Assembly: GCA_903873705.1 (NCBI GenBank) | Contig: CAIQPK010000086.1 | Span: 62,001 to 126,000 of the forward strand | DNA: 64,000 nucleotides | Reading direction: 5' to 3' | Origin: an uncultured Acidobacteriota bacterium | GTDB taxonomy: Bacteria > Acidobacteriota > Terriglobia > Terriglobales > Acidobacteriaceae | Part shown: positions 8,642-47,349 of the stretch, piece after piece | Layout of the letters: every line of letters begins with the position of its first letter | Position numbering within the stretch: position 1 is the first letter of the stretch | Program-made: the position numbers and the translations under genes | The notes under the pieces: model-generated | Told to the model about the DNA's origin: nothing | Seen by the model: only the letters and a program-made list of their open reading frames with translations | Databases searched by the model: none

Positions 8642-9841
8642 TTAGCCCTTGGGCAGCGCGCGTAGTCGCTTAACGGCTGTGGGGATGATTTCCAGCGCGC
8701 GGTCGACTTCTTCTTCGGTGGTGAGCCTCGAGAGCGAAAGGCGGATGCTGCTGCGGGCCTCGGCGTGCGTGAGGCCCATGGCGGTGAGGACGTGGGACGG
8801 CTCGGTGGCGCCGGACTGGCAGGCGGCTCCAAAGCTGGCGGAAATACCCTTTACGTCGAGCGCGATGATGAGCGATTCCGCGTCGATGCCGGGGATGCGG
8901 AGATTGATCGTGTTGGGGACGCGTGGTGCATGGGCCGCGTTGATGGCGGCGTCCGGAATGGAAGACAGCAGGCCTGCTTCGAGGCGCGTGGTGAGGGAAT
9001 GTAGCGCGGCGGGAGCGTCGGAGGCGAGCCACGTGCGCGCGAGTTCGGCGGCGCGGCCCAGGGCTACGATGCCCGGGACGTTCTCCGTTCCGGCACGGCG
9101 CTGGCGCTCGTGGGGGCCGCCGTGGAAGAGCGGTGCAAGTTGCACGCCTGTGCGGACGAACAGCACGCCGGTGCCCTGCGGCGCGTACATTTTGTGGCCG
9201 GAAAGCGAAAGCAGGTCGACGTTCTTGAACTCACCGGCAAGCCCGGCGCCACCGAGGTCGATGGGCTGCTTTCCTGCGGCCTGCACGGCGTCGGTGTGAA
9301 AGAGGATGGTAGCGCCGTTGCGTTCGGCGAATGCCTTTGCGATGCGGGCAAGCTTGCCGACGGGCTGGATGGCGCCGGTCTCGTTGTTGGCGAGCATGAC
9401 GGAGACGAGCCGCGTCTCGGGCCGCAACGCCGCTTCAAACACTGCGGGGTCGATGACGCCGTCTGCCGTCGGCGCAAGGTACGTGACGGTGACGCCGCGC
9501 TTTTCCAGCGACTCTGCCGTGTAGAGCACGGCGTGATGCTCAATGGCGGTCGTGATCAGGTGTGCTGGCTTGCCATGGTCGAGATACGGCTGAAGTACGC
9601 CCGCGAGGGCAAGGTTATCGCTTTCGGTGCCTCCGGAGGTGAAGACGATCTCTTTGGGCTGCGCATTCAGCAGCGCTGCTACGGAAGCTCGAGCGCGCTC
9701 AACGGCCGAGCGCGTGCGCTGGCCGGAGAAGTGCGCCGAGCTGGGATTGCCAAAGCTCTCTTCCCAGAAGGGGCGCATCGCCTCCACGACCTCGGGAAGG
9801 ACGGGCGTCGTGGCGTTCGCGTCGAGGTAGATGCGCGGCAT
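8642..9841 (-). CDS. Cysteine desulfurase (IscS/NifS family)
   Basis: PLP enzyme taking sulfur from cysteine as a protein persulfide for iron-sulfur clusters or tRNA thiolation. The N-terminal MPRIYLDANATTPV, the PLP lysine in LSGHKMYAPQGTG (Lys217) and the sulfur-carrying cysteine loop SFGAACQSGATEPSH (Cys341) are all present; it is 399 residues, as usual. No iscU or other Isc/Suf gene is adjacent, so its partner must be elsewhere. A TAGAAT hexamer lies exactly 6 nt before the ATG and no Shine-Dalgarno sequence is seen, so the mRNA may be leaderless. Confidence 0.93.
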   Translation of the reverse strand: MPRIYLDANATTPVLPEVVEAMRPFWEESFGNPSSAHFSGQRTRSAVERARASVAALLNAQPKEIVFTSGGTESDNLALAGVLQPYLDHGKPAHLITTAIEHHAVLYTAESLEKRGVTVTYLAPTADGVIDPAVFEAALRPETRLVSVMLANNETGAIQPVGKLARIAKAFAERNGATILFHTDAVQAAGKQPIDLGGAGLAGEFKNVDLLSLSGHKMYAPQGTGVLFVRTGVQLAPLFHGGPHERQRRAGTENVPGIVALGRAAELARTWLASDAPAALHSLTTRLEAGLLSSIPDAAINAAHAPRVPNTINLRIPGIDAESLIIALDVKGISASFGAACQSGATEPSHVLTAMGLTHAEARSSIRLSLSRLTTEEEVDRALEIIPTAVKRLRALPKG

Positions 9842-31822: not shown

Positions 31823-32646
<824 letters not shown>

Positions 32647-32650
<4 letters not shown>

Positions 32651-43870: not shown

Positions 43871-44722
43871 ATGTCGAAGCCCGTCCCTCCCCTGAATCAG
43901 GATCCGCGCGCACGCGAAGCGCTTGCGCAGGCCGCGGCCATCATGGCCCGTCTGCGCGCGCCGGACGGTTGTCCATGGGACCTCGAACAAACCTTCGACA
44001 CCATCAAGCGCCACACCCTGGAAGAAACCTACGAAGTCTTCGACGCCATCGAGCGACGTAACTGGCCCGACCTGAAAGACGAGCTCGGCGACCTCCTGCT
44101 GCAAGTACTCTTCTATGCCCAGATGGCCGCCGACGAAGGCCACTTCACCATCGCCGACGTCGCCGAAAACCTGAACGCCAAGCTCATCCGCCGCCACCCC
44201 CACATCTTCCCTCCGAAAGACGGGGTCGCCACCGAAGCCACCACTCCTGACGCCGTCCTCCGCAACTGGGAGCAGATCAAGCAGGAAGAGAAGCGCTCGA
44301 AACCTGCCGCCGAATCCATGCTCGACGACATCCCTCGCTCCATGCCCGCCACGCTCGAAGCCCACAAGCTCGGCTCCAAAGCCGCTAAGGTCGGCTTCGA
44401 CTGGCCCGACGCCTCCGGCCTCTTCGCCAAAATGGACGAAGAACTTGCAGAGCTCATGGTCGAAGTCGAAGCCAAACACAACGACAACGTCGAAGCCGAA
44501 TTCGGCGACCTCATGTTCACCGCCATGAACCTCGCCCGCCATCTCAACGTCGACGCCGAGTCCGCCCTCCGCCGCAGCAACGTCAAATTCCGAGCCCGCT
44601 TTCTCGCCATGGAACGCATCGCCGGCGGCCGCGAAGGCCTCGCGCAGCTTCCGCCCGAAGAGCTCGAAGCCTTGTGGTCGCAGGCCAAGCGCGCCGAAAA
44701 TAAAGCAGGAGAAAAAGTTTGA
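43871..44722 (+). CDS. mazG: Nucleoside triphosphate pyrophosphohydrolase MazG
   Basis: Hydrolyses (d)NTPs to monophosphates, removing aberrant nucleotides. Two MazG halves: the first has GCPWDLEQTFDTIKRHTLEETYEVFDAIE and DELGDLLLQVLFYAQMA (metal-binding EExxE and ExxD), the second EELAELMVEVEAKHNDNVEAEFGDLMFTAMNLARHL. 283 residues. It shares TTGA with the next gene's start, so it heads the operon leading to the racemase genes although the functions differ. Confidence 0.93.
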   Translation: MSKPVPPLNQDPRAREALAQAAAIMARLRAPDGCPWDLEQTFDTIKRHTLEETYEVFDAIERRNWPDLKDELGDLLLQVLFYAQMAADEGHFTIADVAENLNAKLIRRHPHIFPPKDGVATEATTPDAVLRNWEQIKQEEKRSKPAAESMLDDIPRSMPATLEAHKLGSKAAKVGFDWPDASGLFAKMDEELAELMVEVEAKHNDNVEAEFGDLMFTAMNLARHLNVDAESALRRSNVKFRARFLAMERIAGGREGLAQLPPEELEALWSQAKRAENKAGEKV

Positions 44723-45501
44723 ACGGGTCCACACCGGCCACGCAACCCACGCCAATCATCCGCATCGAACCGCTCACCACCATCGAGCAGTTCGATCGCT
44801 GCGTCGAGCTGCAGGAGATCGTCTGGCACTATGACATCGCCTCGATGATGACCCAGAAAGTCTTCCTCCTCGCCGCCCACATCGGTGGCCAGGTCCTCGG
44901 CGCCTTCGATGGCAACACGCTAGTCGGCTATGCGATGTCGCTGCCCGGCGTGCGCAACGGCCATGCTTACCTCCATTCGCACCACCTCGCCGTGCTAGCC
45001 GACTGGCGCAACTACGGTGTAGGCCGCCGACTCAAACTCGCGCAGCGTGACGACGCCCTCGCCCGTGGCTTCGCCATGATGGAGTGGACCTTCGATCCGC
45101 TCGAAATCAAGAACGCCCACCTCAACTTCGCACGCCTCGGTGCCATCTCCCGACGCTACATGCCCAACTTCTACGGCACGTCCGTCTCTCCACTCCACGG
45201 CGGTCTTCCCACCGACCGCATCGTCGCCGAGTGGTGGCTCAACTCCGACCGCGTCACCCGCATCCTCGCGGGCGAGCAGCCCACCATGCACGTCACCGAG
45301 CACGTCGACGTCCCCGCAGAAATCGCCGAGTGGAAAGCCTCCGACGCCACCCGCGCCCGGGCTCGCGCTCTCCAGGCCGCCAACCAGGCGGCGCTGCAAT
45401 CCGCCTTCGCCCGCGGCCTCGCCGTCATCGGCTACGAGCGCAACGCCCACGACGACGGCCGCTTTCTGCTCGGCGTCTGGAACGAGCCCTTCGTCTACTA
45501 G
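44719..45501 (+). CDS. GNAT N-acyltransferase (D-amino-acid N-succinyltransferase candidate)
   Basis: 260 residues, a large GNAT protein. The acyl-CoA-binding segment is HHLAVLADWRNYGVGRRLKLAQRDDALARG, with MEWTFDPLEIKNAHLNFARLGAISRRYMPNFYG typical of the COG3375-like group. The TTG start overlaps the mazG stop; AGGAG lies upstream. In Geobacillus kaustophilus a GNAT succinyltransferase sits with N-succinylamino-acid racemase and a desuccinylase to convert D- to L-amino acids. The gene order here supports the same role; direct evidence is lacking. Confidence 0.78.
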   Translation: MNGSTPATQPTPIIRIEPLTTIEQFDRCVELQEIVWHYDIASMMTQKVFLLAAHIGGQVLGAFDGNTLVGYAMSLPGVRNGHAYLHSHHLAVLADWRNYGVGRRLKLAQRDDALARGFAMMEWTFDPLEIKNAHLNFARLGAISRRYMPNFYGTSVSPLHGGLPTDRIVAEWWLNSDRVTRILAGEQPTMHVTEHVDVPAEIAEWKASDATRARARALQAANQAALQSAFARGLAVIGYERNAHDDGRFLLGVWNEPFVY

Positions 45502-45510
45502 GAGCAACGC

Positions 45511-46203
45511 ATGAGCCAACACATCGGAATCGTCGCCTGCTCCGCCGAAGGCGCCGCGCTCTGCTATCGCACCATCTGCGTCGAAGGCGCCGCGCTGATG
45601 GGAGCGCATGACCATCCCGAAGCCTCTCTGCACACCCACTCACTCGCGACCTACGTTAAGTGCCTCGACCGTGACGACTGGCAAGGTGTCGCCGACCTCA
45701 TGCTTTCTTCCGCGCACAAGCTCGCCAGCGCCGGCGCCGACTTCCTCATCTGCCCCGACAACACCATCCACCAGGCCATGCCTATCGTCGTCCCAAACTC
45801 CCCGCTCCCATGGCTGCACATCGCCGAGGTGGTCGCGCAAGCGGCCGCCAGCTGTGGCTTTTCACGTCTCGGCATCACCGGCACCCGCTGGCTGGTAGAA
45901 AGCAACGTCTACCCCGAAAAGCTTGCCGCACACGGCCTGGATTTCCGACGCCCGAGCCCCGCCGACCGCGCGGAAATCAACCGCATCATCATGGACGAGT
46001 TGGTTTACGGCGTCCTCAGGTCCGAATCCGTCGCTATCTTTCAACGCATCATTTCCGGGCTGAAAGCGGAAGGTTGCGACGCGGTCGTGCTCGGCTGCAC
46101 AGAAATCCCGCTGTTGATGAACGACGAAAACTCCCCACTCCCCACGCTCGACTCCACACGCCTGCTCGCCCGCGCTGCTCTCGCTCGCGCCCTCGTATCC
46201 TAA
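45511..46203 (+). CDS. Aspartate/glutamate racemase superfamily protein
   Basis: 230-residue member of the PLP-independent racemase fold. The second catalytic cysteine is intact (VVLGCTEIPLL). The first motif reads FLICPDNTIHQAM: the residue directly before Asn-Thr, normally the catalytic Cys (CNT), is Asp, and a Cys lies two positions earlier. The altered site may change substrate or reaction. ITGTRWLVES and the C-terminal STRLLARAALARAL are family-like. It is 9 bp after the GNAT gene and 18 bp before the enolase-superfamily gene. Confidence 0.85.
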   Translation: MSQHIGIVACSAEGAALCYRTICVEGAALMGAHDHPEASLHTHSLATYVKCLDRDDWQGVADLMLSSAHKLASAGADFLICPDNTIHQAMPIVVPNSPLPWLHIAEVVAQAAASCGFSRLGITGTRWLVESNVYPEKLAAHGLDFRRPSPADRAEINRIIMDELVYGVLRSESVAIFQRIISGLKAEGCDAVVLGCTEIPLLMNDENSPLPTLDSTRLLARAALARALVS

Positions 46204-46221
46204 GCTCTGAAAGGTCTCCCG

Positions 46222-47349
46222 ATGAAAATTGAAGCCGTCCATCTCCGCGAAGTAAACATGCCGTTAGCGCACCCGTTCGAAACCAGCTTCGGCGTCACCA
46301 CCGGCCGCCGCATCCTGCTCGTCGAGCTCATCTGCGAAGGCCGCTCCGCCTGGGGTGAGTGCGTCGCCGGAGAGCACCCCTACTTCTCCGACGAGATGAT
46401 CGACACCGCCTGGCATATCACCGAGACTGAGCTCGTTCCGCGCCTGCTGGCCGCCGACCTCAACGACGGTCGCGACTGCCCCGCGCTCTTCGAGCAGGTC
46501 CGCGGCCACCGCATGGCCAAGGCCGCTCTCGAAAACGCCGTCTGGGAGCTCGACGCGATGCGGCAGGGAATTGCCCTCTCCAAACTCCTCGGCGGCACCC
46601 GCGAAATCATCCCCTGCGGCGTCTCCATCGGCATCCAGCCCACCCCCGAAAAGCTGATGCAAAAGATCGAAACCGAAGTCGCCGCGGGCTATCAGCGCAT
46701 CAAGCTCAAGTGCAAGCCCGGCTGGGACGAAGCCATCTTTACCGAAGCCCGCAAGCGCTGGCCAGACATCCTGATGAGCTGCGACGCCAACTCCGCCTAC
46801 CGCCTGTCTGACGCTCCTCGCATCGCCACCTGGGACCGCTTCAATCTCCTCATGATCGAGCAGCCCCTCTGGTACGACGACTTCTACTTCCACACCGAAC
46901 TCCAGAAGCAGATCAAGACCGCCATCTGTCTCGACGAGTGCATCCGCAACCGCCGCGACGCCCAGGCCGCGCTCGAGCTTGGCAGCGGACGCATCATCAA
47001 CATCAAGGTCGGTCGCGTTGGCGGCTTCACTGAGGCCATCGCCGTCCACGACGTCGCACAGCAGTTCGGTGTCCCCGTCTGGTGTGGTGGCATGTTGGAA
47101 ACCGGCATCGGCCGCGCGCACAACATCGCGCTCTCGTCGCTGCCCAACTTCTCGCTTCCCGGCGACGTCTCCGCCTCCCAACGCTACTGGACGGAAGACA
47201 TCATCGCCCCTGAAGTCACGGTCAGCGCATCCGGCGAAATCGTTGTCCCCACCTCGCCCGGCCGTGGCTTCGAGGTCCTCCCCGAGCGCATCGAGAGCCT
47301 CACCGTTCGCCGCCAGACGCTCCGCCGCAACGCCGCCGTCTCCAGCTAA
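46222..47349 (+). CDS. Enolase-superfamily N-acylamino-acid racemase / o-succinylbenzoate synthase
   Basis: 375 residues in the MenC/NSAR group. Catalytic features are in order: FETSFGVTTG (capping loop), KLKC in RIKLKCKPG (KxK acid-base pair), SCDANSAYRL (Asp), MIEQPLWYDD (Glu), CLDECIRN (Asp) and NIKVGRVGG (Lys). OSBS and N-succinylamino-acid racemase activities often occur in the same protein. No other menaquinone gene is adjacent; the GNAT and racemase neighbours favour amino-acid racemisation. Confidence 0.88.
   Translation: MKIEAVHLREVNMPLAHPFETSFGVTTGRRILLVELICEGRSAWGECVAGEHPYFSDEMIDTAWHITETELVPRLLAADLNDGRDCPALFEQVRGHRMAKAALENAVWELDAMRQGIALSKLLGGTREIIPCGVSIGIQPTPEKLMQKIETEVAAGYQRIKLKCKPGWDEAIFTEARKRWPDILMSCDANSAYRLSDAPRIATWDRFNLLMIEQPLWYDDFYFHTELQKQIKTAICLDECIRNRRDAQAALELGSGRIINIKVGRVGGFTEAIAVHDVAQQFGVPVWCGGMLETGIGRAHNIALSSLPNFSLPGDVSASQRYWTEDIIAPEVTVSASGEIVVPTSPGRGFEVLPERIESLTVRRQTLRRNAAVSS

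Follow-up and report, generated by a model that had tools for sequence, protein, structure and literature searches.

A conserved mazG-GNAT-NSAR gene block of Acidobacteriota, a probable N-acyl route from D- to L-amino acids, with an unusual Asp/Cys racemase gene inserted in one species

The known N-succinyl pathway converts D-amino acids to L-amino acids with a GNAT-family acyltransferase, an N-succinylamino acid racemase (NSAR) and an L-desuccinylase of the M20 family. These genes are reportedly those of Geobacillus kaustophilus described by Sakai et al. in 2006 (Biochemistry 45:4455). We analyzed a 64,000-nt stretch (the window) on contig C86 of an uncultured Acidobacteriota bacterium, whose genome (G000) comprises 4.18 Mb in 94 contigs; genomes, contigs, loci and families are referred to by G, C, L and f numbers. 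The window harbors a locus of four genes: mazG, a GNAT gene, a gene of the Asp/Glu racemase family and an NSAR-like gene of the enolase superfamily. The mazG, GNAT and NSAR genes form a conserved Acidobacteriota block whose last two genes probably serve an N-acyl route from D- to L-amino acids, with the likely hydrolase encoded elsewhere, on C55, and the racemase inserted. PMC8142540 describes NSAR enzymes as racemising through a pair of Lys bases, and PMC7431475 describes them as accepting a wide range of N-acyl groups.

The genes of the locus are as follows.
43871-44722, + strand: mazG, nucleoside triphosphate pyrophosphohydrolase (PF03819, 1.5e-35; PRK09562, 309 bits, cut-off 208)
44719-45501, + strand: GNAT N-acyltransferase, 260 aa, TTG start (PF00583, 24.3 bits, cut-off 20.7)
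45511-46203, + strand: Asp/Glu-racemase-family protein of a 'CPDNT' subfamily (PF01177, 8.8e-27, 94.7 bits, cut-off 31; further model TIGR00035, 101.9 bits, cut-off 93.1)
46222-47349, + strand: enolase-superfamily enzyme of the NSAR/o-succinylbenzoate synthase (OSBS) subfamily (MR_MLE_C, 8.7e-40; TIGR01928, 323.4 bits, cut-off 200.65)

This four-gene order, proposed by a sequence-only reading, was confirmed from the open reading frames and the family matches. The GNAT start overlaps the mazG end by 4 bp, and gaps of 9 bp (GNAT/racemase) and 18 bp (racemase/NSAR) follow. The overlap and the conserved order make translational coupling of mazG and GNAT plausible. We know of no part played by mazG in an N-acyl amino acid pathway. 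No tRNAs were found in the window. No description of this cluster was found in the titles and abstract openings of the papers listed, which did not include subscription journals.

The GNAT-NSAR pair is widespread in the phylum. NSAR relatives were found at E<=0.001 in 169 of the 247 phylum genomes, distant members of the enolase superfamily included, and GNAT relatives in 133 of the 247. Among the matches listed, 116 genomes hold both genes, 17 NSAR only and 10 GNAT only. Among these same matches, 71 of the 116 genomes, from 23 families, have GNAT upstream of NSAR, with both genes on one strand and no more than 2.5 kb apart. This is far more often than chance would give. The count used 144 NSAR and 138 GNAT matches among those listed. 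It left out seven weaker NSAR matches (fragments in G004, G024, G098 twice, G188, G226 and one more on a contig of these genomes; E 1e-69 to 4e-39), so NSAR pieces do occur in two of the ten 'GNAT only' genomes, G098 and G226. Also left out were the 12 weakest GNAT matches of the listing (E above 1e-9), and weak GNAT matches therefore exist in five of the 17 'NSAR only' genomes.

Within the family, each of the 26 genomes drawn has GNAT ahead of NSAR on the same strand; the window genome is among them, with the racemase between the two genes. The gap between the two genes is 21-194 bp in the other 25 genomes, compared with 724 bp in the window. All 25 of these loci (L010-L034) show the order mazG-GNAT-NSAR. 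Judged from these sequences, GNAT and NSAR are the conserved core and mazG is the first gene of the conserved block.

The named NSAR loci, some of which are short contigs, are the best 80 of 585 relatives, and shares among them thus represent an unfair sample. In this set GNAT precedes NSAR at 58 loci, 38 of which also carry mazG. At eight loci an M20 gene stands no more than 4 kb away on the strand of NSAR, in six of them with GNAT. An AspR-type racemase occurs at one locus and the inserted racemase at none. Fifteen of the 80 have no other gene of the set detected nearby on the same strand, which counts against the proposed pathway. The M20 gene of L158, L199 and L211 is on the other strand.

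Two side observations concern this set. At four of the 80 loci (L157, L159, L160, L163) NSAR comes after mazG and no GNAT was detected in between. Locus L154 carries a second NSAR-like piece at 9347-9595, about 2 kb behind the first, with 66% identity to the window protein.

The closest PDB match of the window NSAR is 1sja, the N-acylamino acid racemase (NSAR/OSBS) of Amycolatopsis (E 9.1e-102). The top solved relatives are N-acyl/N-succinylamino acid racemases, some also labelled OSBS. The Amycolatopsis enzyme is a full-length homologue whose active-site residues are retained in the window protein, whereas Tyr322 of the latter replaces a Phe of 1sja. In an alignment of 23 NSAR sequences, K161, K163, D188, E213, D238, K262 and R265 are invariant. 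We take K161-x-K163 and K262 to be the Lys bases, and D188, E213 and D238 to be three acidic metal ligands. R265, the Arg of K-x-G-R, three residues past the second Lys (R266 in Amycolatopsis), is presumably a marker of NSAR activity. The enzyme is most likely an N-succinyl(acyl)amino acid racemase, as judged from these residues and relatives. The NCBIfam equivalog TIGR01928, however, labels it o-succinylbenzoate synthase. In a further difference from the Amycolatopsis case, the window organism has no MenD over the cut-off, and an OSBS activity of its enzyme would therefore lack substrate.

The AlphaFold2 model of the window GNAT has a pLDDT of 94.6, and its top PDB structural match has Z 17.3 and an rmsd of 1.6 over 148 residues. 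In the model the GNAT fold spans about residues 13-175, and a further C-terminal part follows. No close solved homologue was found by phmmer at E<=0.001, and the best hit of a profile search was at 0.0048; the structural comparison, which covered mainly residues 12-180, showed general GNAT similarity of this part, with acetyltransferases matched. The window GNAT is 30-33% identical to the GNATs of Bacilli NSAR clusters and 34% identical to those of Chloroflexi (L203, L209). An alignment of 40 GNAT sequences, the Bacilli NSAR-cluster GNATs included, has 18 invariant columns. By these comparisons the protein is a probable amino-acid N-succinyl/acyltransferase. We assume its family to be COG3375, a name under which no literature match was found.

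In Bacilli and Chloroflexi the third gene of the pathway can stand beside the other two. M20, GNAT and NSAR genes share a strand within a 4-kb stretch at Bacilli loci L194, L198, L204 and L210, four of the five Bacilli loci, and at Chloroflexi loci L203 and L209. These clusters, together with the pairing in all 26 same-family genomes, bear out the likeness of the window GNAT and NSAR to the Geobacillus pathway that the sequence-only reading had drawn. The window genome resembles that of G. kaustophilus in having GNAT beside NSAR and in holding M20 hydrolases. It differs in that the block contains no hydrolase, begins with mazG and has a racemase inserted, and in the type of hydrolase linked to it.

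No M20 hydrolase was found in the same cluster as the window GNAT and NSAR; the genome has 12 M20 matches, none of them on C86. The M20 types tested are absent beside the block at all 25 same-family NSAR loci (about 1.5 kb behind NSAR). Neither these 25 loci nor three of them read with more flank carry a racemase like the inserted one, and the longer flanks again lacked the M20 types tested. The best candidate lies on another contig.
Contig C55, L133:6052-7200, + strand: M20 gene, candidate hydrolase, relatives linked to NSAR

In f21 genomes (L097, L098, L100, L104) NSAR is followed by an M20 hydrolase gene whose product shares 39-46% identity with the C55 protein. With the C55 protein as query, 219 of the 247 genomes match at E<=0.001. 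Among the matches listed at E<=1e-30, 110 genomes hold both a C55-type M20 and NSAR. They are at most 1 kb apart in 11 of these 110, where 0.1 would be expected, and at most 12 kb apart in 17, against an expected 0.64; the expectation assumes uniform positions in 4.5-Mb genomes and is uncorrected for kinship. This comparison used 146 NSAR matches (134 genomes) and 128 M20 matches (126 genomes). The 11 close cases include four f21 and three f34 genomes; the two genes of G125 are on different strands, the G098 case depends on a fragment of NSAR, and the M20 proteins of G016 and G102 are only 33% and 29% identical to the C55 protein. GNAT, M20 and NSAR occur together in six genomes (G016, G055, G098, G102, G176, G192). 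The C55-type M20 is present in all 26 own-family genomes, in G112 as a partial match, but never within 12 kb of NSAR. The C55 copy retains the HxD, DMK, DEE and C-terminal His motifs of its NSAR-linked relatives, which we take to be metal-site motifs.

Several observations weigh against this assignment. C55 does not reach the cut-offs of its best models, with 271.6 of 386 bits for PRK07473 and 237.9 of 349 for PRK06133 (glutamate carboxypeptidase). A rival hydrolase gene of the same genome, on C88 (L003), exceeds the cut-off of the amidohydrolase model TIGR01891 (269.5 vs 153.75 bits); of all genes in the genome it comes closest (27-29%) to the Bacilli-cluster M20. Against the pathway more broadly, the fifth Bacilli locus, L208, has no detected M20. 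By sequence the product of either C55 or C88 could be the hydrolase; C55 is favored because of its linkage to NSAR within the Acidobacteriota, and is the likely hydrolase of the pathway. C55 offers a specific and testable candidate for the third enzyme.

From the known pathway we infer the catalytic steps, the acyl donor and the direction of the route. GNAT would acylate a D-amino acid, and NSAR would racemise the N-acyl amino acid with its pair of Lys bases. An L-specific M20 hydrolase encoded outside the block, C55 being the best candidate, would then free the L-amino acid. The conversion from D to L would be irreversible because the hydrolysis is L-specific. The acyl group is probably succinyl, and the amino acid substrates are predicted in the same way. 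The type of pathway core is known; what is specific to the window species is the insertion, between GNAT and NSAR, of an Asp83/Cys196 racemase of an unusual subfamily. Such a D-amino-acid salvage route may occur widely among bacteria that are abundant in soil.

The sequence-only reading had further proposed that the desuccinylase is missing and that the racemase takes its place. This was not supported. Blocks of the same family that lack the racemase, 25 in number, likewise show no tested M20 type beside them, and replacement of the hydrolase by the racemase is therefore rejected as the main reading. The NSAR-linked type of M20 is present elsewhere in the genome, on C55.

The inserted protein is nearest to racemases of the YgeA/EcL-DER types, with solved relatives 3ojc (1.4e-32) and 5hqt (2.3e-30). 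Its best NCBIfam model, PRK10200, gives 117.5 bits, far under the cut-off of 417. It belongs to the same Pfam family as the YgeA, EcL-DER and RacX racemases and keeps their second Cys, Cys196 (GCTEI). The first catalytic position, in the motif C-P-D-N-T-x-H, is occupied by Asp83, which aligns with Thr83 of EcL-DER. The protein is consequently not of the two-Cys type, and its description as an altered racemase is upheld. PMC12838360 and PMC8142540 show that this position varies, with Thr in EcL-DER and Ala in the active, bidirectional RacX of Halocola; the window Asp differs from both and from Cys. Asp was not seen at this position in passages of PMC12838360 and PMC12661438, and may nonetheless have been reported.

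The window racemase belongs to a clade of 26 sequences (support 100/100), in which 25 have Asp and one Val at the first position and all 26 have the second Cys. Given this conservation, the Asp83/Cys196 protein represents a stable subfamily rather than a damaged version of a two-Cys enzyme. The subfamily offers a clean case for how one-Cys Asp/Glu-type racemases can work. Free amino acids are the probable substrates of the enzyme, which would be linked to the pathway either by recent recruitment or by chance.

The distribution of the gene is narrow. It is found in one of the 28 genus genomes, nine of which miss the quality limits of the tally; five others have only matches of at most 35% identity, and no full-length close match occurs in the other 27. 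At no other locus examined (25 same-family loci, the 27 other genus genomes, 80 named loci) does a racemase of this kind lie between GNAT and NSAR. None of 23 other loci of the clade has GNAT, NSAR or a tested M20 type nearby (14 with 9-12 kb and nine with 2.4-3.7 kb of sequence); these cover 23 of the 25 other members, L063 and L064 being left out. Beyond the same-genus pair L080/L082, the subfamily showed no shared neighborhood in two comparisons, one of which used a crude gene picking that missed some genes.

How the racemase came to stand in the block allows several explanations. It may be a passenger, an independent gene that was perhaps gained laterally from other Acidobacteriota and landed in the operon; we give this somewhat less than an even chance. 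The scattered and mostly solitary orthologues fit such an origin. The tree groups the window racemase with f56 and f25 sequences (97/88), apart from the other own-family copies, a placement that suggests lateral gain, although the root is a midpoint root only. The composition, however, is not foreign: the GC content is 0.632 (0.625 for the window), and the GC content at third codon positions is 0.775, against 0.775 for mazG, 0.858 for GNAT and 0.848 for NSAR. The frame and motifs are also intact and neither neighbor is disrupted.

Alternatively, the racemase could be integral to a variant pathway, feeding or complementing GNAT and NSAR by supplying D- from L-amino acids or by handling amino acids that NSAR refuses. 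Its position within the operon, flanked by short gaps, and the AGGAG that precedes its start codon speak for this. A two-Cys racemase also follows NSAR in f28 (L077, L078, L079) and in a named metagenome-assembled genome (L201), which makes at least two forms of the pairing. Since a different racemase follows NSAR at these loci, a functional link between racemase and NSAR is possible. The integral role is nevertheless unlikely in view of the narrow distribution given above, with the racemase missing from the block at the 25 same-family and 80 named loci and its relatives at 23 loci free of pathway genes. More doubtful still is a two-racemase D-amino-acid system, in which the enzyme would use an Asp/Cys acid-base pair and cooperate with the two pathway enzymes. 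It might, for instance, convert between L and D in one direction only and so determine which amino acids go into the N-acyl route.

The NSAR-adjacent racemases of L077, L079 and L201, which carry PCNTAH and GCTE, follow NSAR directly. Two of them, at L077 and L201, score above the cut-off of CuyB, a model for cysteate racemase. At L078 (1758-4361) the reading frame of the racemase runs on through HAMP, HisKA and HATPase domains; this is either a fusion of racemase and histidine kinase or, the genome being fragmented, an error of assembly.

GNAT and NSAR might instead handle other N-acyl amino acids, such as N-acetyl forms, in detoxification or storage, and have no part in D-amino acid salvage via N-succinylation. 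NSAR enzymes tolerate many N-acyl groups according to PMC7431475, and the GNAT model matches acetyltransferases, its fold fitting acetyl transfer as well as succinyl transfer. The gene content, hydrolase included, fits the succinyl pathway as known from Bacilli, and we regard this alternative as rather improbable.

The route from D- to L-amino acids also has to be weighed against a role of the enolase-superfamily enzyme in menaquinone synthesis. MenD is over the cut-off in none of the 60 family genomes, compared with seven of 14 controls; weak matches occur in 48 of the 60, and the best of the window genome reaches 64.2 of 244.2 bits. PF02621, presumably the MqnA/MqnD family, is over the cut-off in all 60 (two matches in the window genome) and in four of the 14 controls. 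MqnC is over the cut-off in 56 of the 60, the window genome being one of the four without. Both MqnC (297.3 of 428.1 bits) and MqnE (206 of 434.55) are below the cut-off there, which counts against the proposed reading. Only two MqnC-like genes were found in its genome.
G000:C46:27421-28509 (L094:5422-6510), - strand: divergent MqnC-like gene, CxxxCxxC present, 297.6 of 428.1 bits
G000:C9:78221-79111 (L095:5222-6112), - strand: MqnC-like gene, profile match only from position 74, no CxxxCxxC

MqnC is likewise below the cut-off in G309 and G330, with a match of about 305 bits. These two genomes keep a homologue of 382-385 bits that is absent from the window genome.

By these profile matches the classical menaquinone route looks absent and the futalosine route present in the family; in the window genome the latter is only partly shown, because neither MqnC nor MqnE is over the cut-off. 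A menaquinone pathway with this gene as its sole MenC, which the sequence-only reading had named as the contrary case, is thus not what was found. That the enzyme is the MenC (OSBS) of such a pathway, as the TIGR01928 match over the cut-off and its being the only homologue in the genome at E<=0.001 would allow, is highly improbable and rejected on context, since MenD is over the cut-off in none of the 60 genomes, the MqnA/MqnD family is over it in all, and the genes linked to NSAR are GNAT and M20. The equivalog name o-succinylbenzoate synthase is probably wrong in this family of Acidobacteriota.

Another racemase-like gene lies in the window, at 31823-32650 on the - strand. The N-terminus of this open reading frame resembles, as we take it from a motif with no family search made, the glutamate racemase MurI. 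The genome may therefore have a separate racemase for cell-wall D-Glu.

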